DNA from: Vulcanimicrobiota bacterium
GTDB taxonomy: Bacteria; Pseudomonadota; Gammaproteobacteria; Xanthomonadales; Rhodanobacteraceae
Direction: 5' to 3'
DNA length: 37,246 nucleotides
Assembly (NCBI GenBank): GCA_903970555.1
Contig: CAJCJD010000196.1
Coordinates: forward strand, 1-37,246
A program made the translations under genes and the position numbers. This document shows positions 6,903-23,085 of this stretch, piece by piece. The stretch's first letter is position 1. The number at the start of each line of letters is the position of its first letter. The notes beneath the pieces were generated by a model, which saw nothing but the letters and a program-made list of their open reading frames with translations, was not told the DNA's origin and made no database searches.

Positions 6903-7592
6903 GTGTCCGCCATCAACGGCAATTCAACATCCAATTATTCGGTGTCCGGCCTGAGTCTCACGGGCAGCACGGTCACGAGCACGCCTACCGGCTCGACCAT
7001 GACGCAGTCCGATTTCCTGCAATTGCTCACTACGCAGCTACAGGATCAGGATCCGACGCAGCCGATGGACAACTCGCAAATGGCCGCCGAACTGGCGCAG
7101 TTCGCGACGTTGTCCACCACTCAGGACATCGACACCAATTTGCAAACCTTGAGCAGCAACGTCAGCAGCGGCATGCAGTCGTCGCAGGTGCTCGGCGCGG
7201 CCAACCTGGTCGGCAAGCAGGTGCTGGTGCCATCCACGACGCTCGATTACAGCGGCAGCGCCGCGACCGGTGGCGTGAACGTCACGACTGCCGGCGATGT
7301 CGTGCTCACGATCAAGGATAGCAACGGCAACACCGTCAACTCCATCGATCTGGGTAGCCAGCAGGTGGGATTGACGCCCTTCAGTTGGAACGGTACGGAC
7401 AGCAGCGGCAATACCGTTGCCAACGGCACCTACACCATTTCCGCCAACAGCGGTGGCAGCAGCACCGCCTTGACGACATATGCCTCCGGCTCGGTGACGG
7501 GTGTTGGCTACGGCGGCAGCAGTACCGGTACGTATTTGCAAGTGGCAGGCGTCGGCGGTGTGCCGCTGAGCCAGGTTGCACAGATCAACTGA
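6903..7592 (+). CDS. flgD: FlgD, hook cap / hook assembly scaffold
   Basis: A 229-residue hook-capping protein starting at GTG with GGGAG upstream. The conserved N-terminal part contains SDFLQLLTTQLQDQDPTQPM and DNSQMAAELAQFATL. After that comes the FlgD immunoglobulin-like region with PFSWNGTDSSGNTVANGTY, a classic FlgD stretch. FlgD caps the growing hook and is discarded when FlgK arrives. It is the third gene of the flgB operon. Confidence 0.96.
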   Translation: MSAINGNSTSNYSVSGLSLTGSTVTSTPTGSTMTQSDFLQLLTTQLQDQDPTQPMDNSQMAAELAQFATLSTTQDIDTNLQTLSSNVSSGMQSSQVLGAANLVGKQVLVPSTTLDYSGSAATGGVNVTTAGDVVLTIKDSNGNTVNSIDLGSQQVGLTPFSWNGTDSSGNTVANGTYTISANSGGSSTALTTYASGSVTGVGYGGSSTGTYLQVAGVGGVPLSQVAQIN

Positions 7593-7639
7593 CGTCGGCC
7601 CGCAATCGCTCGCCGTCATTACATCCAGAGGAATACAGC

Positions 7640-8866
7640 ATGGCTCTCAATCAGGCGCTCAGCGGCATTAATGCAGCCGAATCACAACTCAATGTCATCT
7701 CCAACAACATCGCCAATGCGGGCACCGTGGGTTTCAAGGGCTCGACGGCGCAGTTCGCCGAGGTCTACGCGGTGACCGGCCTCAACCTCAGCTCTACCGC
7801 TGTGGGCAGCGGTGCCGAACTGACCGGTGTCGAGCAGCAGTTCGGGCAGGGCAACCTGGAAACCACCGACGGCAGCCTGGACATGGCGATCAGCGGCAAC
7901 GGTTTCTTCGTCGTCAATAGTGGCAGCGGCAATCAGTACACCCGCGATGGCGCGTTCACGGAAAACGCCGATAACTATGTGGTCGATTCGAGCGGCGGCT
8001 ATCTCCAGGTGTACCCGCCTAACGGCAACGGCGGTTTCAACACCAGCACCCTGAGCAACCTGCAGCTGAACGCCGCGCAGAGCGCAGCGACGCCCACAAG
8101 CGCCATCACCATCACCTCGAATCTGCCATCGGGTGCAGCGCTGCCTACCGACACGCCGTTCAGCCCGACGGATGCGAACAGCTACACCAATTCGTCGGGC
8201 TTCAATGTCTATGACTCGCAGGGTGGCACGCACGACGCGACGATTTATTACGTCAAGACCGGCAACAACACCTGGAACGCGAACCTCTACATCGATGGCA
8301 ACAGCGCGGGCACCGCGGCGATGACGTTCAACAGCGCCGGTCAGCTGCAGACGCCTGCCGATGGCAATCTCACGTTCACGCCTACGCAGCCGACCAATGG
8401 CGCCACGTTCCCGGCCACCATGACGGTGAACATGGCCAACACCACGCAGTTCGGCACCGCCTATGCGCCGGGTACGGCGAATGCGAACGGCAACGCTGCA
8501 GGTGTGCTGCAAAACGTGGAGATCGGCACTGACGGTATCGTCACAGCGATCTACTCCAACAACCAGACCACGCAGCTCGGTCAGATTGCCGTTGCCAACT
8601 TTTCCAACCTGCAGGGTTTGCAGCAGGTCGGCAACAACAACTGGGTGGCCACGCAGTCGTCGGGAATCGCCGTGATGGGCTCCGCCGGCGCGGGCCAGTA
8701 CGGCAATATCGAGCAAGGCCAGCTGGAAACGTCCAACACCTCCGACACCACGGCGCAGTTGGTCGACATGATCCAGGCACAGCAGAACTACGAAGCCAAT
8801 TCGCAGATGCTGGGCACGGTCAGCTCGCTCGACCAGTCGCTGTTCCAGGCTGTGGATCGCGGGTAA
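7640..8866 (+). CDS. flgE: FlgE, hook protein
   Basis: A 408-residue hook subunit. The N-terminal axial motif ISNNIANAGTVGFKGS and the C-terminal MIQAQQNYEANSQMLGTVSS form the helical core. The middle is a Ser/Thr/Gly/Asn-rich surface region including FSPTDANSYTNSSGFNVYDS, typical of FlgE. The start at 7640 has AGAGGA at good spacing. The longer open frame from 7385 is out-of-frame read-through of flgD. The length is normal for a polar hook protein. Confidence 0.97.
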   Translation: MALNQALSGINAAESQLNVISNNIANAGTVGFKGSTAQFAEVYAVTGLNLSSTAVGSGAELTGVEQQFGQGNLETTDGSLDMAISGNGFFVVNSGSGNQYTRDGAFTENADNYVVDSSGGYLQVYPPNGNGGFNTSTLSNLQLNAAQSAATPTSAITITSNLPSGAALPTDTPFSPTDANSYTNSSGFNVYDSQGGTHDATIYYVKTGNNTWNANLYIDGNSAGTAAMTFNSAGQLQTPADGNLTFTPTQPTNGATFPATMTVNMANTTQFGTAYAPGTANANGNAAGVLQNVEIGTDGIVTAIYSNNQTTQLGQIAVANFSNLQGLQQVGNNNWVATQSSGIAVMGSAGAGQYGNIEQGQLETSNTSDTTAQLVDMIQAQQNYEANSQMLGTVSSLDQSLFQAVDRG

Positions 8867-8872
8867 TAGCGC

Positions 8873-9613
8873 ATGGATCGTTCCGTCTACATTGCAATGA
8901 CCGGCGCTACGCAGACCATGCGTGCGCAGGATGCCGTGAGCCACAACCTGGCCAACGCATCCACTGTCGGTTTCAAAAGCGAGCTCAGCGCGTTTCAAAG
9001 CGTGCCGGTGCTTGGCCCTGGTGCGAATACGCGCATCAATGCCGTGGCACAGGGCGTTGGGCAAGACGGAACGCAGGGTACCGTCCAGCACACCGGTCGT
9101 TCATTGGATGTCGCCGTGAACGGTCCGGGCTGGATCGCGGTGCAGGCACCAGACGGCAGCGAGGCTTATACGCGCGCCGGCAATTTGCAAATGGATGCCG
9201 ACGGCAATCTCACCGATAGCCGCGGCAATCCGGTGATGGGCTCCGGCGGTCCGGTCACCATCCCCGATAGCTCGCAGATCAGCGTGGGCAGTGACGGCAC
9301 CATTTCAACGGTGCCGATGGGTCAGGGACCCAACACCATCGCCGCGGTAGGGCAGCTCAAATTGGTCAATCCCGATCGGACGCAAATGTCGGAAGGTTCC
9401 GATGGCCTGATGCACATGAACGACGGCAGCACCGCCGATGTCGACCCCACCGTTACGGTGACAGCGGGCGCGTTGGAAGCCAGCAACGTCAATCCATCGT
9501 CGGAGCTGGTGAAGATGATCTCGCTGTCGCGCCAATACGAAATGCAAGTGCGTTCGATCAAGACGTCTGAAGACGACGCGGACGACAGCAGCAAACTTCT
9601 GCAGACCAGCTAA
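8873..9613 (+). CDS. flgF: FlgF, proximal rod protein
   Basis: A 246-residue rod protein beginning MDRSVYIAMTGA, the usual FlgF start. SHNLANASTVGFKSELSAFQ is the axial motif, and a C-terminal MISLSRQYEMQVRSIKT helix is present. It lies six bases after flgE and is probably translated in series with it. FlgF and FlgG are paralogues; the start sequence and position before flgG identify this copy as FlgF. Confidence 0.96.
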   Translation: MDRSVYIAMTGATQTMRAQDAVSHNLANASTVGFKSELSAFQSVPVLGPGANTRINAVAQGVGQDGTQGTVQHTGRSLDVAVNGPGWIAVQAPDGSEAYTRAGNLQMDADGNLTDSRGNPVMGSGGPVTIPDSSQISVGSDGTISTVPMGQGPNTIAAVGQLKLVNPDRTQMSEGSDGLMHMNDGSTADVDPTVTVTAGALEASNVNPSSELVKMISLSRQYEMQVRSIKTSEDDADDSSKLLQTS

Positions 9614-9636
9614 CGCACGACACACGGAGCCAAGCC

Positions 9637-10422
9637 ATGTTTTCTTCTCTCTGGATTGCCAAGACCGGCCTCGATGCGCAGCAGACGCAGATGGACGTGA
9701 TCTCCAACAACCTGGCCAACGCCAACACCACCGGATTCAAATCCTCGCGCGCCTCGTTCCAGGACTTGATGTACCAGAACGAAGGCCAGCCCGGCAGCCA
9801 GACGACCCAGCAGACGGAATCGCCGTCGGGTCTTTTGCTAGGTACCGGCGTGAAAGTGGTAGGCAGCGAAAAACTGTTTACCCAGGGCGCCGTCACGCAG
9901 ACAGGCAATTCGCTCGACGTGGCGATTCAAGGCAACGGCTTTTTGCAAGTCAGCTTGCCTGACGGCACCGTCGCGTACACGCGTGATGGTTCGCTGCATG
10001 AAGATTCCACCGGACAGCTGGTGACGGCCGACGGTTATCCCACCGTTCCGGCGATCACGCTGCCGGCCAACGTCAACAACGTCACCATCGGCACGGATGG
10101 CACGGTCAGTGCCACCAGCAACGGCTCCACCACGCCCGCGCAGATCGGCGTGATCCAGCTCGCCAACTTCATCAATCCGGCGGGTCTGGAGGCGATGGGG
10201 CAAAACCTTTACCTGGAAACCGAATCCAGCGGCACGGCACAAACCGGGCAGCCCGGCGTCAACGGCATGGGCACGCTCGCGCAAGGCTCGCTGGAATCGT
10301 CCAACACGAACGTCGTTGCCGAGATGGTCAACATGATCGAGGCCCAACGCACCTACGAGATGAACTCCAAGTCGATCAGCGCCGTGGACGACATGCTGCA
10401 GTTCGTCATCAACAAAACCTGA
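9637..10422 (+). CDS. flgG: FlgG, distal rod protein
   Basis: A 261-residue distal rod subunit of standard length. It starts MFSSLWIAKTGLDAQQTQMD, followed by ISNNLANANTTGFKSSR and ends with a NMIEAQRTYEMNSKSI core helix. The ASFQDLMYQN segment after the axial motif is typical of FlgG and separates it from FlgE. FlgG forms the distal rod that passes through the P and L rings encoded just downstream. Confidence 0.97.
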   Translation: MFSSLWIAKTGLDAQQTQMDVISNNLANANTTGFKSSRASFQDLMYQNEGQPGSQTTQQTESPSGLLLGTGVKVVGSEKLFTQGAVTQTGNSLDVAIQGNGFLQVSLPDGTVAYTRDGSLHEDSTGQLVTADGYPTVPAITLPANVNNVTIGTDGTVSATSNGSTTPAQIGVIQLANFINPAGLEAMGQNLYLETESSGTAQTGQPGVNGMGTLAQGSLESSNTNVVAEMVNMIEAQRTYEMNSKSISAVDDMLQFVINKT

Positions 10423-10433
10423 GTCGTACTGCC

Positions 10434-11132
10434 ATGTCTTATTCCTCTGTGTACATTCGTGTCACTGCCGTCTTGCTGGTGCTCGCGCTGCTGTCCGGCT
10501 GCGCGCAGATTCAGCAGCGGCAAAAACAGGAAGACGCCGAGTGGGCCGCCACCGCGCCGATCGAGCAGCCCGCGCCGCCACAGGCGAACGGTTCGATCTA
10601 TCAAGACATGCAGAACATGGAGCTGTTCAACGATGCACGCGCGCATCGCATCGGCGACATTCTCACCATCAACCTCGTTGAGGCGATGCAGGCCAGCAAG
10701 AAGTCCGAAACCACGACCAGCAAGACCGACAAAGTCAACGTCGGGGCACCAGAAATCCTGGGGCATTCGCTGAGCGTGGGCGGCGGTGCTGCGGCGAACT
10801 CCGCACTCAACACCGCCAACAGTTTCGATGGCGCAGGCAGCAGCACCCAGAGCAATCAGCTGACGGGCCAGCTCACCGTGACGGTGGCGCAGCGCCTTTC
10901 CAATGGCAACTTGCTGGTGCGCGGCGAGAAGTGGCTGACCATCAACCAAGGGCAGGAGCTAATCCGTATTTCCGGCATCGTGCGCGCGCAGGATATCGAA
11001 CAGGACAACTCCGTCGATTCCACCCGCGTCGCGGATGCGCGCATCACTTACACCGGTCGCGGAACGCTCGATAGCGCCAATACACAAGGCTGGCTGGCGA
11101 AGTTCTTCAACTCGAAGTGGATGCCCTTCTGA
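10434..11132 (+). CDS. flgH: FlgH, L-ring lipoprotein
   Basis: A 232-residue outer-membrane lipoprotein. The signal peptide ends in the lipobox LSGC with the acylated cysteine at residue 23. The body carries the FlgH hallmarks [16 protein letters not shown] near residue 70 and [17 protein letters not shown] with [12 protein letters not shown] near the C-terminus. FlgH forms the bushing of the outer membrane around the rod. Its stop overlaps the flgI start by one base. Confidence 0.97.
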
Positions 11133-12265
11133 TGAATGCATCGTGGCGTAAACGAATTTCGATCGGCGGCATCGTCGCACTTATCGTGTCATCGCTGGCT
11201 TTCACGCCCACTGCGCACGCGGACAAGATTCGCGATCTGGTGCAAGTGGCAGGCGTTCGTAGCAACCAGCTTGTCGGCTATGGCCTTGTCGTTGGTCTCG
11301 ACGGTACCGGTGACCAGACCACGCAGGCACCGTTCACTACTCAAAGCCTGGAGAACATGCTCAAGCAGTTCGGCGTGTCGATTCCCGCAACGGGTATCCA
11401 GCCGCAGTTGAAAGACGTCGCGGCAGTGACCATCACTGCGGAGCTGCCGCCTTTTGCCAAGCCGGGTCAAACCATCGATGTGACGGTGTCGTCGATCGGC
11501 AACGCCAAGAGCATTCGCGGTGGCGAGTTGTTGATGACACCTCTGCGCGGCGCGGACAGCAATGTCTATGCGGTGGCGCAGGGCAGTGTGGTAGTCGGCG
11601 GTATCAGCGCGTCGGGCAAAAGCGGCTCCAGCGTGCAGATCAACATTTCCGCCAGCGGACGTATTCCCAACGGTGCATCGGTCGAACGCTCGGTGCCTTC
11701 GTCGTTCAATAGTGCTGGCGATCTGGTGCTGAATCTCAATAGCGCCGACTATGTGACGGTCAATCGTATCGTCGAGGCGATCAATCATCTTTACGGTGCT
11801 GGCACGGCGCGTGCGGTGGATGGCGGTTCGGTCTCCGTGCGCGGCCCGGTCGATCCCGGCGAAAAGGTGGCATGGCTGGGCGCGATCGAGTCGCTCGATG
11901 TGCAGCCGGGTGATGCGCCTGCACGCGTAATCGTCAATTCGCGCACCGGCACCGTGGTGATCGGTTCGGATGTGCGCGTGAGTGCCGCGGCAGTGGCGCA
12001 TGGTTCGATCCAGGTGACCATCAGCGAGCAGCCGCAAGTCAGTCAGCCTGCGCCTTTCAGCAATGGCCAGACGACCGTGGTACCCAACAGCGCCGTGTCG
12101 ATCAGCCAACAGGGTGGGCATATGTTCAAGTTCGGTCCTGGCGTCAGTCTGGATTCGATCGTGCGTGCGGTGAATCAAGTTGGCGCGACACCCACCGACC
12201 TGATCTCGATTCTCGAAGCACTCAAACAAGCCGGCGCGTTGCACGCCGATTTGGTGGTCATCTGA
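11132..12265 (+). CDS. flgI: FlgI, P-ring protein
   Basis: A 377-residue periplasmic ring protein. The signal peptide probably ends at AHA, residue 30. The mature protein starts [20 protein letters not shown] with [13 protein letters not shown], a strongly conserved FlgI opening, and ends with the [20 protein letters not shown] segment typical of the family. The ATG at 11132 overlaps the flgH stop (TGATG). An in-frame GTG at 11117 is less likely, as it adds an unconserved pentapeptide before the signal sequence. It assembles with the help of FlgA, encoded at 2750-3442. Confidence 0.97.
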
Positions 12266-12266
12266 T

Positions 12267-13220
12267 ATGGCCGATCTCGGCAACGCCGCAGCGCAAAGCT
12301 TAAGCACCTGGACGGATTTGTCCGGATTCAGCGCGCTGCGTCATCAAGCCGAGACAGATAGCAACAGCGCACTGCCGGCGGTTGCCAAGCAATTCGAATC
12401 GATGTTCACCGAGATGCTGTTGAAGTCGATGCGCGAAGCCAACTTTGGCGATCCGTTGTTCGAAAGCCAAGCCGGTGACGAATGGCAGGATATGTACGAC
12501 CAGCAGCTTTCGCTCAATCTCTCGCACGGCAAGGGCTTGGGTATTGCCGACATGTTGGTGCGCCAGTTGGGCGGCCATAACGGACAAGGCGGGGAAAACA
12601 AAACGAGTGCCGTCGATCCAGGCGCAGCCGGACTCGTCGATGGCTGGCGGCAACGTTTGTACCAAGTGGCCGATGCCACGCGTTCCGCCGGCCGCGCCGC
12701 GATGGCGTGGCTGCCGGCGGATGCGCAAGCCTTCGTGCGCGAACTCGCGCCGCAGGCCAGTGTCGTTGCCAAGGAACTGGGTTTGTCCTTGCGCACCGTG
12801 CTGGCTCAGGCCGCATTGGAAACGCAATGGGGCAAGCACATGCCGGCGCATTCCGATGGCAGCAGCAGCTTCAATCTTTTCGGCATCAAAGCTGGTAACA
12901 GTTGGGGCGGCTCGCGCGTCAATGTGCCGACGGTGGAATACGAAGGTGGGATCGCTGTGCGCAAGCAGGCGCAGTTCCGCTCCTATAAATCCACCACCGA
13001 TTCGCTGGCCGACTACGCCGATCTGATCGGCAAGGACCCCCGTTACGCCCAGGCCCGTGGCCGCGGCGACGACGTCATGGGTTATGCGAAAGCTTTGATC
13101 GAAGGCGGTTACGCGACCGATCCCGATTACGCGGGCAAGGTTGCGGCGATCGCCAACAGTTCCATGATGCGTGATGCGCTGGATGCGCTCAAGAAAACGA
13201 CTTCCCTGCCGACACCGTGA
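12267..13220 (+). CDS. flgJ: FlgJ, rod cap and peptidoglycan hydrolase
   Basis: A 317-residue two-domain protein. The N-terminal rod-binding part (about residues 25-100) includes KQFESMFTEMLLKSMREANF. The C-terminal glucosaminidase domain (about 155-310) holds the probable catalytic E185 in LAQAALETQWGKH and the family's FNLFGIKAGNSWGG and FRSYKSTTDSLADYADLI segments. FlgJ caps the growing rod and opens the peptidoglycan layer for it. The full two-domain form is typical of gammaproteobacteria. It starts one base after the flgI stop. Confidence 0.96.
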   Translation: MADLGNAAAQSLSTWTDLSGFSALRHQAETDSNSALPAVAKQFESMFTEMLLKSMREANFGDPLFESQAGDEWQDMYDQQLSLNLSHGKGLGIADMLVRQLGGHNGQGGENKTSAVDPGAAGLVDGWRQRLYQVADATRSAGRAAMAWLPADAQAFVRELAPQASVVAKELGLSLRTVLAQAALETQWGKHMPAHSDGSSSFNLFGIKAGNSWGGSRVNVPTVEYEGGIAVRKQAQFRSYKSTTDSLADYADLIGKDPRYAQARGRGDDVMGYAKALIEGGYATDPDYAGKVAAIANSSMMRDALDALKKTTSLPTP

Positions 13221-13272
13221 GCGTGGCTTATGACGTTTGCGCGCCTCGGGCTCATTTCTTAAGGATTGTTTC

Positions 13273-15171
13273 ATGTCCAGCAGCATGCTCAACATCGGCA
13301 TATCTGGGTTAAATGCCGCCCAGGTCGCGCTGAGCACCGTCAGCAACAACATCGCCAATGCCAGCACCAGCGGCTACAGCGAAGAAAGCGTGCTGCAAGC
13401 CGAAAGCGTCACGCAGAGCAACGGGCGCTACACGATAGGCGGCGGCGTCGATGTCGTGTCTGTGCAGCGCGCATACAGCCAATACCTGACCACCGCGCTG
13501 TGGAGCAGCAACAGCAACCTTCAAAGCGCGACCACGGCCAGCGACCTCACCGGCAACCTCAATAGTTTGCTGAGCGGCAGCGGCAATCTGCAAACCGCGC
13601 TGGATAATTTCTATAGCAGCTTCAGCAGTGTGGCGAGTTCGACCAATTCGTCATCGGTGCGAGAGGCCGCGCTGGGCGACGCGTCATCCTTGACCAGCGT
13701 TTTCAACACGCTAGGCCAGCAGCTGACCCAGCAATCGACCGAAGTCAATCAACAGGTCAGCGATACCGTCACCAGCATCAATAGCTTGAGTTCGCAGATC
13801 GCGACGCTCAATGGCCAGATTGCACAGGCCGGCACCAATGGCAATCCGAACGCGTTGCTCGATCAGCGCGACAACCTGGTGCAGCAGTTGGCGGGACTGA
13901 CCGGCGTCACGGCGACGACCAACAGCAATGGCGCGCTCAGTGTGTATACCTCGGCCGGACAAACACTGGTCAGCGGCACGCAATCCTATGCGCTGTCCGC
14001 AGGCGGCAATCAGTACGATCCCACCAGCACGGATGTCTTCGATAGTGCTGGCGACGACATCACCTCCCAAGTGACCGGCGGTACGCTGGGTGCGCTGCTC
14101 AGCTACCGCTCCACGGTGCTGGAGCCTGCGCAGAATGCGCTGGGGCAGTCGGCGATTGCGTTGGCGTCCAGCGTCAATGGACAGCAGGCGCAGGGTTTGA
14201 ATTTAAACGGCCAGCAAGGCCAGGCGATTTTCAGCGTGGGCTCGCCCACTGTGTTGCCGTCAAGCAAGAACTCGACCGGTGGCGCCACGGTGGGTGCAAC
14301 GGTTAGCGATGTGTCGCAGCTGACCAGTTCCGACTACATCCTCAGCTATACCGGCGCAGGCACCGGCACCAACGGTTGGAGCCTGGCGACCACCACCGGG
14401 CAGAGCGTGGCGCTGACGGCGAATTCCGATGGCACGCTTTCCGCCGACGGTCTCACCTTCAGCGTGTCGGGTACCGCGCAGACCGGCGACAGCTACGAGA
14501 TCGAACCCACACGCAACGCCGCCAGTTCTTTGTCGGTGAGCATGACCGATCCCAGCGGCATCGCTGCCGCCGCCGCATTGACGGGCACCGCTACCAAAAC
14601 CAACACCGGCACCGGCACGGTCGGCACGGTCAGCGTGACCAACGCGAGCAACACCAATCTGCTTTCCGGTGCGACGGTGACGTTCGGTGCCGGCGGCACA
14701 TACAGCATCACCGATGGTGCCGGTAACACTACGACCGGTACCTATACCGCCGGTCAGCCGATCACTGCCGATGGTTGGAGCATGAGTCTCAGCGGCACAC
14801 CGGCGAGCGGCGACACCTTTACCGTCGCGGCCAATACCAACGGGCTCAATGACGGCAGCAACGCGACAGCTTTGGCGTCGCTGGCCGATGCGGGCGTGCT
14901 CAATGGCGGCAAGACTTCCATTGTGTCGAGCTACGCCAACCTCACCGCGCAAATCGGCTCGGCCGGTAGCCAGGCCAGTTCGGAACTGACCACGCAAACG
15001 AATTTGTACAACCAGGCGGAAAGCAACCAGCAAAGCGTCGCTGGCGTGAACTTGAATCAGGAAGCCGCCAACCTGGTGCAGTACCAACAGGCTTACCAGG
15101 CGTCGGCGCAGGTGATCTCTACCGCCCAGCAATTGTTCACCAGCCTGATCACCGCGATACAGGACGGCTAA
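13273..15171 (+). CDS. flgK: FlgK, hook-filament junction protein 1
   Basis: A 632-residue junction protein. The N-terminal core has VSNNIANASTSGYSEES and the C-terminal core has GVNLNQEAANLVQYQQAYQA with VISTAQQLFTSLI. It is longer than enterobacterial FlgK because of Gly/Ser/Thr-rich beta modules in the middle (about residues 345-540) that end in GDSYEI and GDTFTV signatures. The start at 13273 has TTAAGGA upstream, and the longer frame from 13237 adds an unconserved leader. The 52-base gap after flgJ holds no consensus sigma54 or sigma28 site. FlgK joins hook to filament and is chaperoned by FlgN. Confidence 0.96.
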   Translation: MSSSMLNIGISGLNAAQVALSTVSNNIANASTSGYSEESVLQAESVTQSNGRYTIGGGVDVVSVQRAYSQYLTTALWSSNSNLQSATTASDLTGNLNSLLSGSGNLQTALDNFYSSFSSVASSTNSSSVREAALGDASSLTSVFNTLGQQLTQQSTEVNQQVSDTVTSINSLSSQIATLNGQIAQAGTNGNPNALLDQRDNLVQQLAGLTGVTATTNSNGALSVYTSAGQTLVSGTQSYALSAGGNQYDPTSTDVFDSAGDDITSQVTGGTLGALLSYRSTVLEPAQNALGQSAIALASSVNGQQAQGLNLNGQQGQAIFSVGSPTVLPSSKNSTGGATVGATVSDVSQLTSSDYILSYTGAGTGTNGWSLATTTGQSVALTANSDGTLSADGLTFSVSGTAQTGDSYEIEPTRNAASSLSVSMTDPSGIAAAAALTGTATKTNTGTGTVGTVSVTNASNTNLLSGATVTFGAGGTYSITDGAGNTTTGTYTAGQPITADGWSMSLSGTPASGDTFTVAANTNGLNDGSNATALASLADAGVLNGGKTSIVSSYANLTAQIGSAGSQASSELTTQTNLYNQAESNQQSVAGVNLNQEAANLVQYQQAYQASAQVISTAQQLFTSLITAIQDG

Positions 15172-15173
15172 TC

Positions 15174-16418
15174 ATGATGCGCATTTCCACGAGCTGGATG
15201 TACCAGCAATCGCTCAGCACCATGCTCAATCAGCAGGCCGAGCTGTCGCAGACGCAAAACGAGATCAGTACCGGCAACGCCATCAACGTGGCGTCGGACA
15301 ATCCCGTGGGCGCGGCACAAATCGTCGGACTGAATCACATCCTGGCCGAGAACACCGAGTACACCAGCAACATCAGCAGCGCGAATACGCGGTTGTCCAC
15401 GGAGACGAGCACGCTGAACTCCGTCAGCAACCTGCTCGATAGCGTGAACGATTTGGCACTTGGCTCCATCAACAGCTCGATGTCATCCAGCGACCTCAGC
15501 AATATGGCGACCGAGTTGACGCAGTATCGCGATCAACTGGTGCAGATGGCCAATACCACCGATGCCAACGGGCAGGCATTATTCGCCGGAACCAGCACAA
15601 CGACCACCCCGTTTGTGACGGACAGCAGCACGGGCGCGGTGACCTACGCAGGCAACGATCAACAATCCTTCACGTCGATCGGTACGGGCTTGCAGGTGGC
15701 CAGCAGCGATCCTGGCAGTTCGGTCTTCATGAATCTTCCGGTCGGCAACGGCTCGTTCGTGGCCAGTGCCGGCGCCAGCAACACCGGTACGCTGGTGGTG
15801 GGCGCCAACAGCGTGACCGACACCAATGCTTTTGAGGCGGCCACCGCATCCGGCCCGATCAACGACACCATTACCTTCGGCGCGAACGGCACGTACAGCG
15901 TTACCGACGCCTCGGGCAATCCGGTGACCGATAGCAGCGGCAACCCGATCACTGGCACCTATACGGATGGCGGCAGCATCAGCTTCGATGGAATGTCCGT
16001 CACTATGAGCGGCACGCCAGCCGCAGGTGACACGGTGAACGTGCAATCGGATACGGCATCGAACACGCAAGACGTATTCACCACGCTAAACAACATGATC
16101 GCCACCCTGCAAAGCGGCGGCAGCACGGCGGCCATCAGCAACACCATGAACCGCCAGCTGGAGTCGCTGAACGCCGCGATGAATAGCGTGTCTACCACGC
16201 AGGTCGCGGTGGGCAGCCGCCTGGATACGTTGCAACAGCAGAGCAGCAGTTATTCCGATCTCGGCGTGACGTATCAGAGTGCTTTGACGGATGTCCAAAA
16301 CGTGGATATGGCGACGGCGATCAGCAATCTTTCGCTGCAGTCGACGGCGTTGCAAGCCTCACAGCAGGTTTTCGCAAAGGTACAGGGCACAAGCCTGTTC
16401 GATTACCTGCAGGGGTAA
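15174..16418 (+). CDS. flgL: FlgL, hook-filament junction protein 3
   Basis: A 414-residue flagellin-like junction protein. The N-terminal core includes MRISTSWMYQQSLSTML and NVASDNPVGAAQIVGL, and the C-terminal core ends in ALQASQQVFAKVQGTSLFDYL. A central insertion (about residues 200-290) has the same style of beta module as FlgK, ending GTPAAGDTVNVQSD before FTTLNNMIATLQ. Two adjacent ATGs (15174 and 15177) are both possible starts. It is the last gene of the rod-hook run and is followed by a hairpin. Confidence 0.95.
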   Translation: MMRISTSWMYQQSLSTMLNQQAELSQTQNEISTGNAINVASDNPVGAAQIVGLNHILAENTEYTSNISSANTRLSTETSTLNSVSNLLDSVNDLALGSINSSMSSSDLSNMATELTQYRDQLVQMANTTDANGQALFAGTSTTTTPFVTDSSTGAVTYAGNDQQSFTSIGTGLQVASSDPGSSVFMNLPVGNGSFVASAGASNTGTLVVGANSVTDTNAFEAATASGPINDTITFGANGTYSVTDASGNPVTDSSGNPITGTYTDGGSISFDGMSVTMSGTPAAGDTVNVQSDTASNTQDVFTTLNNMIATLQSGGSTAAISNTMNRQLESLNAAMNSVSTTQVAVGSRLDTLQQQSSSYSDLGVTYQSALTDVQNVDMATAISNLSLQSTALQASQQVFAKVQGTSLFDYLQG

Positions 16419-16522: not shown

Positions 16523-19500
16523 TCAGTTCGGCAGCCACGCGTCACGCCATGCGACCAACTTGTCGTCCGTCAGCATCCAGTCGCGCTGTACCGCTTCGCG
16601 CAAGGTGTCGCCCATCTTCGCGTTCGCATCCATATCGCCAAGGTGCATGCGGATCGCGCCGGTCCATTCCTTGTAGCGGTTCTTGACCCGCGTCACCGGC
16701 AAGTCACCCTGGTAGCACACCATATCCGTGCAGATCACCGGGAAGCCGCATGCGCCGTATTCGAGTAGACGCAGGTTGCTCTTGCACTCGTTGAACGCAT
16801 TTTCTTCCAACGGTGCCAGTGCCAAATCCAGGTTGAGCGAGGCCAGCTTGCGTGGATATTCCTCGATCGGCACGCCGCTGTGGAATTCGTGTACGTAAGG
16901 ACGCAGCTTGTCCGGGCACATGCCGAAGAACACCCATTCCACCTCGTCGGCGAGATCGCGCACCACGTCGGCAATCAACTCCAGGTCACCGCGATGGCTG
17001 GAACCGCCGCCCCAGCCCACACGTGGTTTGCGGCCGACGCGACGCTGGTTGCTGAGATCGCCCCACCAGTCCACCGGCAGACGATTGAGCACGACACGGA
17101 TGTCGGAATGAAAACCTCTGAACTGATCGGCTAATTCGTCGGTCGATACGACAAAGCGATCCACCGTGGCGAGCGCCCGGCGCAGGGACTTCACAATGTC
17201 TTTGGGCATGATGCCGTGGAACATGCTTTTCACGGGGATCTGCTGGATAAGGTCGTCGAGCTCGAACACCTTGAAGGCGCGCGAGAAGTCGCGATAGCTT
17301 TCCAAAAGTTTGATCTGCGTGTCGGTCACCTGACGCTGAAGTACCAACGAAGTGGGCTGGAAACGTTCCATCGCCACCGGCGAAAGATGCACGCCGGCGA
17401 TCATGCCTTCGACCATGCCGTTGCGTTGCATCGAGGCGAACGGTTGCCTGATGCGATAGTGGCCACAGCCGTGCGAGTCGGCGGCGACGCAGAACAGGCG
17501 CGGCAGCAAAGGATTTGCAAACGGCTGCCATGCCTTGCTACGTAACGAATCCAGTTCGAAGCCGGTGCCATCGATACTGAGGTTGACGCTGTAAGCCGGA
17601 TCGCGAGCGAGCTGACGCAACCACTTGCGGTACATCGCGTTTTGTTCGCCCTGAAAGCGTTTCTGCTTGGCCTCCTGGGCTGTCTTGTCGACTTTGGTCT
17701 GACTGACGCTGCCCACGTGCATAAGGCGCGCATACGGTGTCCACACAGTGAGATAGCCGGCCTGTTGCACCTTAAGGCACAGGTCAACGTCGTTGTAGGA
17801 AACCTTGAAATCTTGCTCGTCGAAGCCACCGACTTCCGCGAAGACAGATTTGCGAATCATCAGGCAAGCCGCAGTCACCGCCGTGTAGTTCTGGTCGACG
17901 CGCAAACGATGCATGTAGCCGTCAGCATCCATCGGCTGGCCGATGAAAGGATGATCTGCCGGTCCGCGCAGGCCCAATACCACGCCACCGTGCTGAATGC
18001 GACCGTCGGGATAGTGCAGCTTGGCGCCGACGATGCCAACTTCCGGACGTTGCGCATGATTGAGCAGCGCCTCGATCCAGTTCTCATGCAGGACCGCGGT
18101 GTCGTTATTGAGCAGGATCAGGTATTCGCCGCGCGCTTGTTCCGCGGCGAAATTATTGATCGCCGAGTAATTGAACGGGTGCGGATAGCGCAAGACACGC
18201 AACTGCGCGCTGTTCAAACGTTCGATGCCGTCGAGGTAGGCACAGGCGGCAGGTTCCGCACTGTTGTTGTCGACGATCAGCAGTTCATAGTTGATGTAGC
18301 TGGTTTTTGACAGCAGGCTGTCGATCAGGCCGTTCAGCAATGGCAGCTGATCGCGCGTGGGGATGATGATCGATACCAGCGGCTGCTTGGTGTGTTGATA
18401 CACGACACGATTGAAGCCTGGCAGAGCACCGGGCTCCATCGTATGAACAACGCCAATGCGCTTCAGGTGGCTCGAAACAATCGCTGCGCTATGCGACTTC
18501 ACCGTGTCGGAGGCGAGCCAATGGGTGTAGGGCAGCGCGGCACGATGCATCACTTCGCCGATATGGCCGATGGTATGCAGGCCGTCGGCCTCCAGCAGGC
18601 GGAACAGCAAGTCGTGGGCGGCCATGTCGCCATAACGTTCGTCCAGGCCGCCCAGCTCCACGCTACGCTGGCGCGTGAAGGCGATAGCGCGTCCTGTGTA
18701 CGGATAGCTGCGCAGCATGTCGAGATTGAAGTCAGGCTTGAAGATCGGACTCTCGAATGCGCCGTTGGCGTGGGTATCCTCATCGAAGTAGACAGCACGA
18801 AGGTAAGAGTGCGATGCCACGCGCTCGGCTAGTAATAAGAGTGCGGCGGGATGCAGCAAGTCGCCGGCATAAACAAGCTGTACCCAATCAGCCTCGCTGG
18901 CGGCGATGTCGTTGTTGACGCGCTTGATCAGGTCGTCGTCGCCGGCGATGACGCTGAGTTGGTGATGTGGATAGTGCTGGGCGTCCAGGCTGGCCTGGGT
19001 GCGTTGCACGGCATCCAAATCGTTTGCGTTATCGAGCAGCAGTATCTGGATGCGTGGGGGCGCGCCCAGCTGCTCGATGCGACGAATGGCCTGGGCAATC
19101 GCTATCTCGCTCAGTTGATGCTGCGCCTGCCACTGTTTGTAGAGATCCGATGGAGGCGGCGGAATCAACCATTCTGGAATGATCTTCAGATGCCTGTCGG
19201 TGCGGTTCCAGCAGTCGCCTTCGTGAATCTCGCGCGCGAACGACTCGTTGATGTTGCGCCCATGCCCGATCCATTCCGCCGAAGCGTCGATCAACAGGCG
19301 CTTGCATAGCCAAGTAACGCGATCCACGGGCGAAGCAATCCCGAGCAAGGCTTCCAAGCCGCTCTCATAGGCGATCTGCCACAAGCCGACATAGACCGGA
19401 ATCTGCTTCTCGATAGCTTGCCGCGCATGCCATTCGCCGCCGCGATAGGCCAGGCCGCCGTCCGCATTCAGATAGACGTGCGAGGGCAGCGCGTCGAGCC

Positions 19501-21523
19501 ACTCGCCCGGGATTTTGTCTTCGTCATCGGCCTGTGCGTAGATCAATGCACCCCACTGGCGTAGCAGCGCAATCATCTTGTCGGTGCGCTGTTCGTGGAT
19601 GGCCTTGCGCACCTGCACCAGCAGCGAACGGCCACGCACATGCGTATACGGCGTGAGCACTTGCTCGAATGCCGACGTGTTCCAGTGCTGATCGGGCAGC
19701 ATCGCGCGTGGCGCGACTCGAATCGTGTCGCCCTCCAGGATGTAGTCCGTCACGGTGTTGAGTGCGGGGACACGATTGTCCGCGAAGCTCTGTGCCAGCA
19801 CGCCGCTGCGCAGCGGTGACGGGGTGCCTTCGCGACGCGCGATCAGCAGCAAGCCTGGTGCGTAAGACGACAGCGTGCCGGCATCGACATGCATTTCCCA
19901 TTGCGATGCCTCTTTGCCCGCTTCGCGCAGCAAGGGACGTTGCGCAATCAGGTCGTCGATGCGCCAATCTGTTGAGACGTTGAGTGCCTGCTCGGAAACG
20001 AGCACCTCCGGAAGCAGGGCGTCCGGAAAAGCCAGTTGCGTATCGATATGGATGAGCCCTGCCGCGCGCAGGGCTATTTCAAGCTGAGGGCGTGTGAGCA
20101 GCGTGCTATTGGCGGGAGTCGCTTGACGGTTGGCGACGCTCAGCAACAGGATGCCGTCGGGCTTCAGTGCCGCGACTGCGGCATCGATCGCCTCGCGCAG
20201 CGATTCGCCGCGTGGCCACGCTTCGGCATAGTCGTCAGCGAACGTCAGCGACACGATGTCGTAATCGGGATGCAGCTCCAGCTCGCGCAAACTGGCCTGG
20301 AACACGCGTACTTGTGGTTGCTCACGCATACGGGCTGCTGCAACGCGGGCCCAGTGCGGTGCAAATTCGACGGCGTCGACCACGCAGCCGCGTTCGACCC
20401 ATGCCTGGGTCAGCACGCCGCCACCACAGCCGATTTCCAGCACGCGGCTGCCTTCGATCGCGTTGTCGAAAGCGTGCAACACGTTGGCGCGCCTGGATGA
20501 GAGGTGCAGTGCGCTGGTGCGGCTGTGAATCTCTTTCGCCAGGGTGGCGCTATACAGGCCAGTGTCGGTGGCTTCCTGCACCACGTCGAACAGGCGCGTG
20601 GCAGTGGTGTGGATGGCTTTGTGCGGAGGACGATCACGCAGTGGCGAGTGCCACACGCCTTCCTCATTCCGTACGAAGGTTTCCAGCGGCCATTTGGGCG
20701 GCAGCACGCCGAGCTGTGCGATGACGCGCAGCACGGTGTCATCATGAACGTCGTTCAGTACCTTTTCGTGCTCTAGAAATTCGTTCCAGTCGCGCGAGCC
20801 CTGGCCATCGGCAAAGCCTTTGCCGAATTTGTACTGGCATTCCTCTTCCGATTTGCTCCAGTAATGGTTGATACGCAGTTGTTCAACCGAGACTTTGGCG
20901 CTGAATGGGCCGTCGATAGGCTGGCCGTTTTCGTCGACTGCGCGTGCATCGTTGGCGTAATGCATGAAGTGCGCGTTCGGGCAGCCGACCACTTTGGATG
21001 GCTGTACGATGCTTTTGATGTGCGAGTTTTCCGAGCGGTAGTTGCCATTGGGCAAACGCAAATGCGCATACGGCACCCCACCATCCAGTTGCCCACGGCG
21101 AAGATAGTTCTCCAGCACACCACCTGCAGGTTTCTGCTTGTGTCCGGCCGAACCGAACATCACCCAGTTGACGCCCACGGCCGGATGATCAGCGTAGTCG
21201 GCCAACACGTCGGGAAGTAACTTGGCTTTGGGGGAGAACAGGAATTCGTCGATATCGATGAAGGCTAGCCAATCGGTCTCGCTGCCGTGCGTTTTCAGGC
21301 AGTGTTCGTAAGCGCGCAGTTGGGCCGGATGCTGCGGCCATTCGTGCACCACCACCGCACCGGACTCGATATGCGTCTGCAGTGCGTCCAGATAACGATC
21401 CGAGCTGTTGTTGTTGTAGAGATAGAACCGCTCCACACCCATCAGCTGGTGGAATTCGACCCATTCGCGCAAATAGGCGGCCTCGTCCTTGAACACCGCG
21501 CAAATCGCCAGCACACAACGCAT
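16523..21523 (-). CDS. Multi-domain glycosyltransferase-methyltransferase, probable flagellin glycosylation
   Basis: A 1666-residue cytosolic protein with several catalytic modules. Residues about 1-280 form a GT92/DUF616-like glycosyltransferase with a DxD motif in FIDIDEF near residue 87. Residues about 335-520 are a class I SAM methyltransferase with VLEIGCGGG near 360. Residues about 820-1000 look like a GT2-type fold with VYFDED. Residues about 1045-1300 are an intact GT2 domain with VSIIIPTRDQ near 1049 and LLNNDT near 1137. From about 1340 to the end is a GT4-like domain with GWGGGSSHRGD near 1500. AGGA seven bases before the ATG at 21523 fixes the start; a TTG six codons upstream is less likely. 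The position between flgL and fliC, its own sigma54 promoter and comparable xanthomonad genes suggest that it glycosylates flagellin. The sugar and the role of the methyltransferase are inferred. A role in another surface glycan is possible. Confidence 0.88.
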   Translation of the reverse strand: MRCVLAICAVFKDEAAYLREWVEFHQLMGVERFYLYNNNSSDRYLDALQTHIESGAVVVHEWPQHPAQLRAYEHCLKTHGSETDWLAFIDIDEFLFSPKAKLLPDVLADYADHPAVGVNWVMFGSAGHKQKPAGGVLENYLRRGQLDGGVPYAHLRLPNGNYRSENSHIKSIVQPSKVVGCPNAHFMHYANDARAVDENGQPIDGPFSAKVSVEQLRINHYWSKSEEECQYKFGKGFADGQGSRDWNEFLEHEKVLNDVHDDTVLRVIAQLGVLPPKWPLETFVRNEEGVWHSPLRDRPPHKAIHTTATRLFDVVQEATDTGLYSATLAKEIHSRTSALHLSSRRANVLHAFDNAIEGSRVLEIGCGGGVLTQAWVERGCVVDAVEFAPHWARVAAARMREQPQVRVFQASLRELELHPDYDIVSLTFADDYAEAWPRGESLREAIDAAVAALKPDGILLLSVANRQATPANSTLLTRPQLEIALRAAGLIHIDTQLAFPDALLPEVLVSEQALNVSTDWRIDDLIAQRPLLREAGKEASQWEMHVDAGTLSSYAPGLLLIARREGTPSPLRSGVLAQSFADNRVPALNTVTDYILEGDTIRVAPRAMLPDQHWNTSAFEQVLTPYTHVRGRSLLVQVRKAIHEQRTDKMIALLRQWGALIYAQADDEDKIPGEWLDALPSHVYLNADGGLAYRGGEWHARQAIEKQIPVYVGLWQIAYESGLEALLGIASPVDRVTWLCKRLLIDASAEWIGHGRNINESFAREIHEGDCWNRTDRHLKIIPEWLIPPPPSDLYKQWQAQHQLSEIAIAQAIRRIEQLGAPPRIQILLLDNANDLDAVQRTQASLDAQHYPHHQLSVIAGDDDLIKRVNNDIAASEADWVQLVYAGDLLHPAALLLLAERVASHSYLRAVYFDEDTHANGAFESPIFKPDFNLDMLRSYPYTGRAIAFTRQRSVELGGLDERYGDMAAHDLLFRLLEADGLHTIGHIGEVMHRAALPYTHWLASDTVKSHSAAIVSSHLKRIGVVHTMEPGALPGFNRVVYQHTKQPLVSIIIPTRDQLPLLNGLIDSLLSKTSYINYELLIVDNNSAEPAACAYLDGIERLNSAQLRVLRYPHPFNYSAINNFAAEQARGEYLILLNNDTAVLHENWIEALLNHAQRPEVGIVGAKLHYPDGRIQHGGVVLGLRGPADHPFIGQPMDADGYMHRLRVDQNYTAVTAACLMIRKSVFAEVGGFDEQDFKVSYNDVDLCLKVQQAGYLTVWTPYARLMHVGSVSQTKVDKTAQEAKQKRFQGEQNAMYRKWLRQLARDPAYSVNLSIDGTGFELDSLRSKAWQPFANPLLPRLFCVAADSHGCGHYRIRQPFASMQRNGMVEGMIAGVHLSPVAMERFQPTSLVLQRQVTDTQIKLLESYRDFSRAFKVFELDDLIQQIPVKSMFHGIMPKDIVKSLRRALATVDRFVVSTDELADQFRGFHSDIRVVLNRLPVDWWGDLSNQRRVGRKPRVGWGGGSSHRGDLELIADVVRDLADEVEWVFFGMCPDKLRPYVHEFHSGVPIEEYPRKLASLNLDLALAPLEENAFNECKSNLRLLEYGACGFPVICTDMVCYQGDLPVTRVKNRYKEWTGAIRMHLGDMDANAKMGDTLREAVQRDWMLTDDKLVAWRDAWLPN

Positions 21524-21613
21524 TTGTATTCCTCGCCACAACTAGGGAACGTCAGGCGCGCGCGTCAGAATTCCGACACTTCGGCGCGCCCGCGCCGGAT
21601 ATGGGAGTGAGAG

Positions 21614-21629
21614 AGCAAGCTTGGTGCCA
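21614..21629 (-). promoter_or_regulatory. sigma54 promoter of the glycosyltransferase gene
   Basis: On the minus strand TGGCACCAAGCTTGCT is a full match to TGGCAC-N5-TTGCW with ten bases between GG and GC. It lies about 90 bases upstream of the glycosyltransferase start and places this enzyme in the FleQ/sigma54 flagellar class. Confidence 0.88.
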
Positions 21630-21745
21630 ATGCAGATCACAGCGCGTGCGCATCTCGGCAGTGCACGCCAAAGCTTTAGCTGCGTAACGCGCTAATTTTT
21701 TCGCCCATCCCCTTGGCGACGCAGCAAAAAAATGGTCTCGGACGC

Positions 21746-21772
21746 TTAAGTATTCACGGCGCGCGCCGAAAA
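21746..21772 (+). promoter_or_regulatory. sigma28 promoter of fliC
   Basis: TTAAGTAT, 11 bases, then GCCGAAAA: six of eight and seven of eight matches to the FliA consensus, with exact spacing. The fliC start lies 77 bases downstream. Together with the sigma54 site at 21614-21629 it makes the 326-base gap a divergent two-sigma-factor promoter region. Confidence 0.85.
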
Positions 21773-21849: not shown

Positions 21850-23085
21850 ATGTCACTCGTCCTCAATACCAATATTTCTTCGTTGCAAGCCCAGAACAAC
21901 CTGACCAAGTCGTCGAGCGAGTTGAGCACGGCCACTGAAGACCTTTCGTCGGGTCTGAAGGTCAACAGCGCTGCGGATAACGCCGCAGGCTATGCCATTG
22001 CTACACGCTTCCAGACGCAGATCGGCGGCCTGAACCAGGCCAGCGAAAACGCCAGCGACGCCATCAACCTGGCGCAGACGGCAGGCTCGGGTCTGAGCCA
22101 GATCACCTCCAACCTGCAGTCCATCCGCGATCTGGCCGTGCAGGCGGCCAACGGTACGTACCAGGCTTCGGACCGCGCTGCGATCAACACATCGGTGCAG
22201 CAATACCTGTCGGAAATCACGCGTATCGCCAACCAGACCACCTTCAACGGCACCAACGTGTTGAACGGTTCGACCAGCAGCTTGTCGTTCCAGATCGGCG
22301 CCAACGTCGGTCAGGCCATCAACGTGCAGCTGGGCCAGGGTGTCACCACCGGCCAGGTGGGTCAGATCTCCGAAGTCTCCACCGGCAATATCAGCGGTGC
22401 GTTCGTCAATGCCAGCGGCGTTTCGGGCCAGTCTGTCAGCCTGAGCGGTTTGTCGATCGAAGGTGCCGACGGCACGACCTACACCTTCAGCGGCAACACC
22501 ACTGCCAGCAGCGCGCAGGACTTGGCCGATGACATCAATGCGGCGGGTATCAACGGTGTCAGTGCAGCCGTGAACGCCAGCGGCGGTATCAACATCTACT
22601 CGACCGGCGACCTGGCTGTCACCGGTGCGGCCCTTACGGGTGCGGCGGGCACGGTGTTCAACCTCACCAGCGGTGCGGTTGCCTACGGCGCCAGCGGCGT
22701 GGGTTCGGCGGCTACGGGTCTGGCGGCCACCGGTGCGGCGTATACCGACGGCGCGGTGCTGAGTGCGTCCGGTTCGTTGACGGGCGGCGATGTTTTGACG
22801 GTGGACGATGCCAACCAGCTGATCGCACGTGTGGACGCGGCGCTGACTTCGGTCAGCAACTTCTCGAGCACCCTGGGTGCCGTGCAGAACCGCTTCCAGT
22901 CGACGATCTCCACGTTGAGTGCACAGCAAACCAACCTGACGTCCTCGCAAAGCTCCATTCAGGACACCGACTTCGCGGCCACTACCGCGCAGTTGAGCCA
23001 GGCGCAGGTGTTGCAGCAGGCGGGTATCTCGGTGCTGGCGACCGCCAACTCCGAACCGCAGAACATCCTCAAGCTGTTGCAGTAA
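21850..23085 (+). CDS. fliC: FliC, flagellin
   Basis: A 411-residue flagellin. The N-terminal D0/D1 core (about residues 1-170) has LNTNISSLQAQNNLTKSS, SGLKVNSAADNAAGYAIATR and INLAQTAGSGLSQI. The C-terminal core (about 325-411) has TLGAVQNRFQSTIS and ends NSEPQNILKLLQ. The surface region between is short and rich in Gly, Ser, Thr and Ala, so it offers many possible O-glycosylation sites. The start at 21850 has CAGGAG at good spacing; the longer frame from 21817 is not conserved. It is transcribed from the sigma28 promoter at 21746-21772 and followed by a strong hairpin. Only one flagellin gene is present here. Confidence 0.97.
   Translation: MSLVLNTNISSLQAQNNLTKSSSELSTATEDLSSGLKVNSAADNAAGYAIATRFQTQIGGLNQASENASDAINLAQTAGSGLSQITSNLQSIRDLAVQAANGTYQASDRAAINTSVQQYLSEITRIANQTTFNGTNVLNGSTSSLSFQIGANVGQAINVQLGQGVTTGQVGQISEVSTGNISGAFVNASGVSGQSVSLSGLSIEGADGTTYTFSGNTTASSAQDLADDINAAGINGVSAAVNASGGINIYSTGDLAVTGAALTGAAGTVFNLTSGAVAYGASGVGSAATGLAATGAAYTDGAVLSASGSLTGGDVLTVDDANQLIARVDAALTSVSNFSSTLGAVQNRFQSTISTLSAQQTNLTSSQSSIQDTDFAATTAQLSQAQVLQQAGISVLATANSEPQNILKLLQ

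Follow-up and report, generated by a model that had tools for sequence, protein, structure and literature searches.

A probable flagellin glycosyltransferase of 1666 residues encoded between flgL and fliC, with a conserved core and an unusual front half

Introduction

The contig CAJCJD010000196.1 (37,246 nucleotides, analysed as a whole and referred to here as the window) carries flagellar genes, and between flgL (15174–16418, plus strand) and the divergent fliC (21850–23085, plus strand) lies a long gene that is antisense to both. This gene (16523–21523, minus strand, stop codon included) encodes a multidomain protein of 1666 residues, and the question raised by the locus is what such a protein does among flagellar genes. 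A first-pass annotation had read it as a single polypeptide that could build and cap a methylated glycan on flagellin. It had placed the gene between flgL and fliC, which we confirm for the window and for its relatives, but had overlooked the antisense orientation. We lean towards the reading that the protein is a flagellin O-glycosyltransferase, with FliC as proposed acceptor, which would be expressed together with flagellar genes of the sigma54/FleQ class and would build and cap a short glycan. It is of a kind already known, that of the PA1091/FgtA-type flagellin glycosyltransferases; new to us are the combination of domains at its front, which probably stems from an O-antigen terminator, and the pattern of core plus module to which this front belongs. 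The host genus appears to be Dyella, the closest named copy among the matches listed being that of Dyella lipolytica (89% identity).

Results

A single open reading frame with six domains

The minus-strand open reading frame (ORF) is uninterrupted from the ATG at 21523 to the stop codon at 16523; an in-frame TTG at 21541, upstream of the ATG, would yield 1672 residues. Comparison of sequences confirms that the ORF is real and not a chance one, because full length is kept in 13 of the 15 other genomes of the genus (79–89% identity) and the ratio of nonsynonymous to synonymous substitution (dN/dS) is low throughout. Its median was below 0.25 in all eight segments tested in 14 sequences (13 of the genus, the window included, plus locus L141; L010 was left out): 0.06 for GT2b, 0.09 for the GT4-like domain, 0.11 for GT92, 0.15 for the kinase-like core, 0.18 for the linker, 0.21 for both GT2a and the methyltransferase and 0.24 for the stretch 501–610, all of them rough values since dS is near 1. 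A frameshift or fusion artefact was ruled out, as the front half lies in a single open frame in 14 of the 16 genomes of the genus (the window's own included) and the full length is found in 14.

From the N- to the C-terminus, the domains are GT92, methyltransferase, kinase-like, GT2a, GT2b and GT4-like, GT standing for glycosyltransferase family. The open frame and the Pfam domains thus bear out the single chain of glycosyltransferases plus methyltransferase proposed in the first-pass annotation, which had missed the kinase-like module at about residues 501–790. AlphaFold modelled the core, residues 781–1666, with a mean predicted local distance difference test score (pLDDT) of 92.8. The front half was poorly predicted (mean 59.2, part of GT92 below 50), but within it 35 of the 48 ten-residue blocks of residues 281–760 average at least 70. 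The best Foldseek matches of the core model are tandem GT-A synthases (K4CP, heparosan synthase), followed by a mannosyltransferase and polypeptide N-acetylgalactosamine transferases.

The core is homologous to a known flagellin glycosyltransferase

Residues 824–1666 are 48.7% identical to the glycosyltransferase encoded beside a b-type fliC in the Pseudomonas aeruginosa record L033, which is the best match in the plasmid collection and has the gene order described for PA1088–PA1091. According to the PAO1 study (PMC11833859), nonglycosylated flagellin peptide was seen mainly in the pa1091 mutant, so that no glycosylation takes place without PA1091, pa1088–pa1090 mutants carry deoxyhexoses only, the glycan consists of one deoxyhexose, phosphate and N,N-dimethylthreonine, and PA1091 is an enzyme whose activities are difficult to separate. 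Record L033 (P. aeruginosa p2014S05-249-1) is labelled as an 847-kb conjugative plasmid and contains a cluster of flagellar genes that extends from flgK to fleR.

We compared the three regions of this core in 86 sequences, which were left of 92 after removal of six duplicates. GT2a (residues 830–1040; 18404–19036, minus strand) is GT-A-like, lacks the DxD motif and is probably non-catalytic: both acids of the motif are present in 0 of the 86 sequences, in agreement with the earlier suspicion that one GT2 region is inactive. The region lies within the confidently modelled core, whose best Foldseek matches, as noted, are tandem GT-A synthases (whole-query TM-score only about 0.2). An O7-type enzyme, a relative treated below, has a first GT2 module that aligns with GT2a (24% over 174 residues, expectation value (E) 8e-8); Pfam gave for residues 830–1040 a single match, to an unrelated family (E 0.1). 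GT2b (residues 1045–1290; 17654–18391, minus strand), the segment with the lowest dN/dS, has DNNS, NND and YNDVD intact, matches Pfam Glycos_transf_2 over residues 1051–1228 (E 1.1e-19) and shares 46% identity with the second of the two GT2 modules in L153, a plasmid-encoded protein of the O7 type with which the whole GT2 pair aligns over 521 residues (36%, E 8e-80). NND is present in 54 of the 86 core sequences.

The GT4-like domain (residues 1331–1666; 16526–17533, minus strand) is so called on account of a weak similarity, a fold pattern and a conserved motif. Glu1588 is present in all 86 sequences and Lys1581 in 85, KSNLRLLE stands in place of EX7E, and the secondary structure of the AlphaFold model shows two Rossmann-like halves; no GT-B entry appeared in the first 50 Foldseek rows for the core model. 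In the P. aeruginosa protein, GAG replaces NND in GT2b, so that both GT2 regions are without DxD/NND, and the GT4-like motif is intact. PA1091 would hence combine two motif-less GT2 regions with an intact GT4-like domain, and it is required for a glycan that contains only one deoxyhexose. Of its three regions, the GT4-like domain is therefore the most likely to be the initiating transferase that adds the first sugar, an argument weakened by its assumptions that a region without its motif is inactive and that the L033 record represents the PAO1 gene.

The Dyella protein and PA1091/FgtA are alike in the position of their genes between flgL and fliC, in the homologous GT2a–GT2b–GT4-like core and in having a finishing module fused in front. 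They differ in that PA1091 has in front a phosphotransferase of the CDP-glycerol type, for which the addition of phospho-N,N-dimethylthreonine has been proposed, whereas the Dyella front consists of GT92, methyltransferase and kinase-like domains with no fused phosphotransferase; moreover, PA1091 has lost its GT2b motifs and its gene shares the strand of fliC, while the Dyella GT2b is intact and its gene lies on the opposite strand. Fgt1 of P. syringae, likened here by description and not by sequence, is said in PMC3927599 to move rhamnose onto serines of flagellin. Its gene is likewise upstream of fliC, rhamnose comes first and the distal sugars of that system are methylated, but the distal part is made by several separate genes.

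The gene has a conserved sigma54 promoter

A near-perfect sigma54 site (TTGGCACCAA..TTGCT) begins 106 bases upstream of the ATG. We compared the upstream regions of 15 sequences, 14 of the genus including the window and one from outside. The –24/–12 promoter TTGGCACCAAGCTTGCT (21614–21630, minus strand in the window) is present at –103 to –109 in all 15, conserved within otherwise diverged DNA, as the first-pass annotation had predicted from a single sequence. Four sites scoring at least 20.5 occur in the window, both strands considered. Full-score sites are found at 27965 and 35147, ahead of fliE and fliL.

The stretch that separates the sigma54 site from the start codon contains a 14-bp palindrome (GTCGGAATTCCGAC; 21564–21577, minus strand) which resembles a FleQ box and matches at 12 to 14 of its 14 bases in the 15 sequences. 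Its length and its GTC...GAC ends agree with the consensus GTCaNTAAAtTGAC proposed for P. aeruginosa (PMC6120874; PMC10723142), which PMC6120874 found unreliable. When up to three mismatches are allowed, the window contains only two further matches, one upstream of flgB (5877) and one immediately ahead of fliE (28006), both with three mismatches. Three matches is an ordinary count (1.76 expected; 28 of 100 shuffles reach three), and therefore only the positions of the matches are telling. Upstream of fliC is a sigma28-like site (21746–21772, plus strand) with 13 of the 16 bases of the consensus. Since the glycosyltransferase gene has a sigma54/FleQ-class site and fliC a sigma28-like one, the enzyme may be made before its substrate.

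Predicted co-expression with the sigma54-class genes, together with the place of the gene beside flgL, would also suit a target other than FliC in the filament or hook (FlgK, FlgL or FliD). We regard such a target as highly improbable, the characterised relative acting on FliC and nothing further pointing to these proteins.

The core occurs with flagellin and beside flagellar genes

The form with GT92 occurs in 14 of the 16 genomes of the genus and in one genome of another genus, G383, in which the gene is likewise between flgL and fliC. As to the two exceptions, G011 has a flagellar glycosyltransferase with a GT2 module in front and G003 gave no match to the protein. We also searched samples of the order, class and family, drawn evenly from larger groups. 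The order sample (398 genomes) contained 56 matches at E 1e-150 or better, 13 of them full-length (12 in the genus, plus G383, which belongs to the same family); the class sample (369 genomes) contained 34 at E 1e-100 and, among those listed, only the window's own covered the front half. The same architecture was found in the genus and in G383; other lineages combine the core with different front modules.

In the family sample (117 genomes), the Flagellin_C domain was found in 67 genomes, 66 of them above the cut-off; this domain also matches FlgL, and the best match per core-bearing genome was 1e-20 or better. All 18 genomes with the GT4-like domain are flagellin-positive (hypergeometric 1.4e-5, which is not a true probability because the genomes are related). 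A homologue of flgK, flgL, fliC, fliD or fliS flanks 72 of 80 named core loci, at a distance within 1500 bp in 69; these loci were the 80 highest-ranking among 557 matches to two core peptide patterns and are hence biased to the core. The eight loci without such a flank gene are L067, L071, L073, L074, L075, L085, L086 and L090, the flank of L086 being only 371 bases on one side. The position between flgL and fliC, the sigma54 site, the FleQ-box-like palindrome, the co-occurrence with flagellin and the homology to the PA1091 core together support flagellin as the target, as first proposed.

PF01973 (MptE-like in the library), which we take to be the domain of Maf-type flagellin glycosyltransferases, is absent from the Pfam matches of the protein and from the genome (the controls that match are four archaea), and a Maf enzyme was rejected. 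The genome has a complete rmlBACD/rfbBACD set for dTDP-L-rhamnose, grouped on its contig C180. In the Dyella loci L055, L057, L059 and L060, gaps of about 3.5 to 8.8 kb separate the end of the gene from flgL, compared with about 0.1 kb in the window; this spot is possibly a hot spot for extra genes.

The front half resembles an O-antigen chain terminator

Known GT92 enzymes are mostly galactosyltransferases and are mainly eukaryotic and stand-alone. In contrast, the Dyella domain (residues 7–226; 20846–21505, minus strand) is fused to other domains; it matches Glyco_transf_92 (PF01697) at E 2e-25, with 90.2 bits against a cut-off of 23, and its DxD (residues 90–92) is kept in 14 of the 14 sequences compared, so that the first assignment stands. 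A weak match to the solved galactan synthase 8d3t was also obtained (E 0.013).

The S-adenosylmethionine (SAM) methyltransferase (residues 331–500; 20024–20533, minus strand) is matched above cut-off by Pfam methyltransferase families at about residues 347–468 (E 5e-9 to 1e-7). The adjoining kinase-like domain (residues 501–790; 19154–20023, minus strand) is of the type found in the Klebsiella O7 terminator. ORF6 of Klebsiella O7 (PMC11231755) comprises a methyltransferase, an unannotated kinase of 223 residues in which D441 is essential, a coiled coil and two GT2 modules that depend on dTDP-rhamnose; its product is a methyl-phosphate cap. L153 has Y28, Y66, G91, G93, E112 and Y158 at the exact ORF6 numbering and its motif Asp at position 443; it is probably the orthologue of ORF6, in which case D441 would be the motif Asp (D443 in L153, D677 in Dyella). 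The methyltransferase–kinase pair aligns with L153 over 444 residues (24%, E 1.5e-20), and the same pair is found in the plasmid relatives L153 and L154, whose genes directly follow ATP-binding cassette (ABC) transporter genes.

The order methyltransferase, kinase-like, GT2, GT2 is common to ORF6 and the Dyella enzyme. Unlike the latter, ORF6 has a coiled coil and an immunoglobulin-like domain, belongs to an ABC-transporter cluster and has an O-antigen substrate; the Dyella enzyme has a decayed-looking kinase, a GT2a without DxD and the additional GT92 and GT4-like domains. The kinase-like domain and GT2a are spaced by about 40 residues, against about 360 in L153, where a coiled-coil ruler is judged by length.

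In the 14 GT92-type proteins, the first Asp of the kinase motif is kept in every one, the Asn in 3 and the later, metal-site Asp of (I/F)D.EW in none. With that Asp missing from all 14 and the Asn replaced in 11, the Dyella domain is a probable pseudokinase. The kinase fold itself is unconfirmed, since no kinase was among the top 50 Foldseek rows obtained with the front half, which held methyltransferase-fold proteins instead, and a Protein Data Bank (PDB) profile search with the domain gave none either. Ubiquitin matches of the profile were discarded as single weak stretches repeated along polyubiquitin. Two flagellar core proteins, L062 (Dyella sp. RRB7, 8710–13284) and L081 (Pseudomonas sp. 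TTU2014-080ASC, 8974–13365), carry in front a methyltransferase followed by a domain with D-x-x-P-x-N ... D-x-E-W; with this motif intact, they are candidates for methyl-phosphate-capped flagellin.

If the kinase-like domain were active despite its changed residues, the cap would be a methyl-phosphate as in the O7 antigen. The homology of the pair to L153 and the presence of the presumed catalytic Asp in 14 of 14 speak for such an activity, which we nevertheless consider very improbable in view of the replaced Asn and Asp, both of which L062, L081 and L153 keep.

It may be asked instead whether methyltransferase and kinase-like domain are both vestigial spacers in a flagellin glycosyltransferase whose glycan ends, without methyl, at the sugar added by GT92. 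To the decay of the kinase motif can be added that the methyltransferase evolves faster than GT2b, GT4-like and GT92 (0.21 against 0.06–0.11), that the SAM loop of L012 has a one-residue deletion and that His and Leu take the place of the O7 enzyme's SAM-pocket tyrosines Y28 and Y66 in all 7 rows aligned (of 15 GT92-type rows at hand). In these rows E112 and Y158 of the pocket are kept, and L062, L081, L153 and L154 keep all four residues. Nonetheless the loop (residues 363–369) is intact in 13 of 14 sequences, E386 and Y432 are kept in 14 of 14, dN/dS is far below 1 and both domains are present in all 14 GT92-type genomes of the genus. We consider two vestigial domains unlikely and the methyltransferase likely to work, though its target group may have changed. 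The methylated cap proposed in the first-pass annotation has its SAM domain; given the fast evolution, the loop deletion and the replaced tyrosines, it is the least certain step of the scheme below.

A further view is that the enzyme works on the lipopolysaccharide O-antigen or another surface glycan, its flagellar location being incidental. It draws on L153, which also has two GT2 modules, and on L154, an O-antigen role being suggested for both by the preceding ABC transporter genes, as well as on an Enterobacter polysaccharide cluster in which GT92, double GT2 and group 1 glycosyltransferase are separate genes. We think this very improbable: the gene shares its sigma54/FleQ-like features with flgB and fliE, the neighbours are flgL and fliC and no ABC-transporter cluster as in O7-type terminators, the gene co-occurs with flagellin, its core is homologous to a genetically tested flagellin glycosyltransferase and a short linker replaces the coiled coil.

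The front modules appear exchangeable

Pfam was used to type 28 fronts besides that of the window. They consist of a methyltransferase; one or two GT2; an RgpF-like domain; GT61 plus GT2; FkbM methyltransferase plus RgpF; a CDP-glycerol-type phosphotransferase with or without methyltransferase; or a GT4-type domain plus RgpF. The fronts of L041, L064 and L108 gave no Pfam match, and L106 is without any front module. A quick tree of 69 of the 86 cores (17 similar Pseudomonas rows were left out) requires a minimum of 28 changes of the front label, an approximate figure because the labels are coarse: they were taken from phmmer, with L062, L081, L041, L108, L124 and L097 labelled by hand, and the type GT4n was named by eye, including L064 with its lack of a Pfam match. 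From these comparisons, the core at about residues 790–1666 looks like a conserved half that would recognise flagellin and initiate the glycan, and the front like an exchangeable finishing module. As had been suggested, the domain order is unusual, but only in the front half; the core that makes up the rear half is common among flagellin glycosyltransferases.

Some loci depart from this arrangement. L098 (Castellaniella denitrificans, 7480–14247) encodes a protein of 2255 residues with the GT2a–GT2b–GT4-like core twice in tandem and adjoins fliC. L067 (Dyella monticola, 7492–11628; the same gene as L042) is a second core copy with no flagellar gene in its flanks, a front module of the same unassigned type as that of L064 and an altered GT4-like motif (CKGSTPLLEYGACA). 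In L034 (Enterobacter hormaechei plasmid, 7995–11990), a mobilizable IncF plasmid, GT92, double GT2 and group 1 glycosyltransferase are each encoded by a gene of their own, the three genes being adjacent and next to rfbBDAC; several E. coli plasmids have genes that resemble the GT92 and GT2 ones.

Discussion

We infer the acceptor, the donors, the order of the steps, the structure of the glycan and its methylation as follows. The GT4-like domain would put one deoxyhexose, probably L-rhamnose from dTDP-rhamnose, on Ser/Thr of FliC; GT2b would add a second sugar, probably rhamnose, GT2a being a non-catalytic GT-A domain; the N-terminal GT92 would add a further sugar; and the methyltransferase would add a terminal O-methyl cap, while the kinase-like domain joined to it would have decayed.

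Besides the changes in the methyltransferase, several results weigh against this scheme. For the GT4-like domain, the best Pfam score is below the cut-off (Glyco_trans_1_2, E 0.0048) and a PDB profile search found nothing below E 0.4. Residues 61–274, which include most of GT92, are those modelled at pLDDT below 50, and no kinase was recovered for the front half. The related methyltransferase–kinase–GT2–GT2 enzyme acts on O-antigen. Ser/Thr content is not raised in the centre of FliC (0.24, against 0.24 and 0.28). Finally, 49 other flagellin genomes of the family, G003 among them, have no match at the cut-off, and therefore the enzyme is at most one of several solutions.

In the literature on flagellin glycosyltransferases (titles and starts of abstracts), PA1091 and Fgt1 are covered and front-module exchange was not found. 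No publication combining flagellin and GT92 was found in a search that left out most subscription papers, and no study of Dyella flagellin glycosylation was among the matches listed.

Flagellin glycans help to set how hosts, phages and immune receptors perceive a bacterium, and the differences in these glycans between strains are poorly explained. Our comparison suggests which of the three glycosyltransferase regions works in PA1091-like proteins. Tentatively, we propose that in many Proteobacteria flagellin glycosylation may consist of a conserved core and exchangeable finishing modules fused in front, some of them derived from O-antigen chain terminators; some flagella, such as those of the L062 and L081 strains, might then carry rhamnose glycans capped with methyl-phosphate, and Dyella would have a kinase-dead terminator plus a GT92 sugar. 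If this is true, the core could serve generally to place the first deoxyhexose on flagellin, and the outer glycan could be predicted from the sequence of the front module alone.

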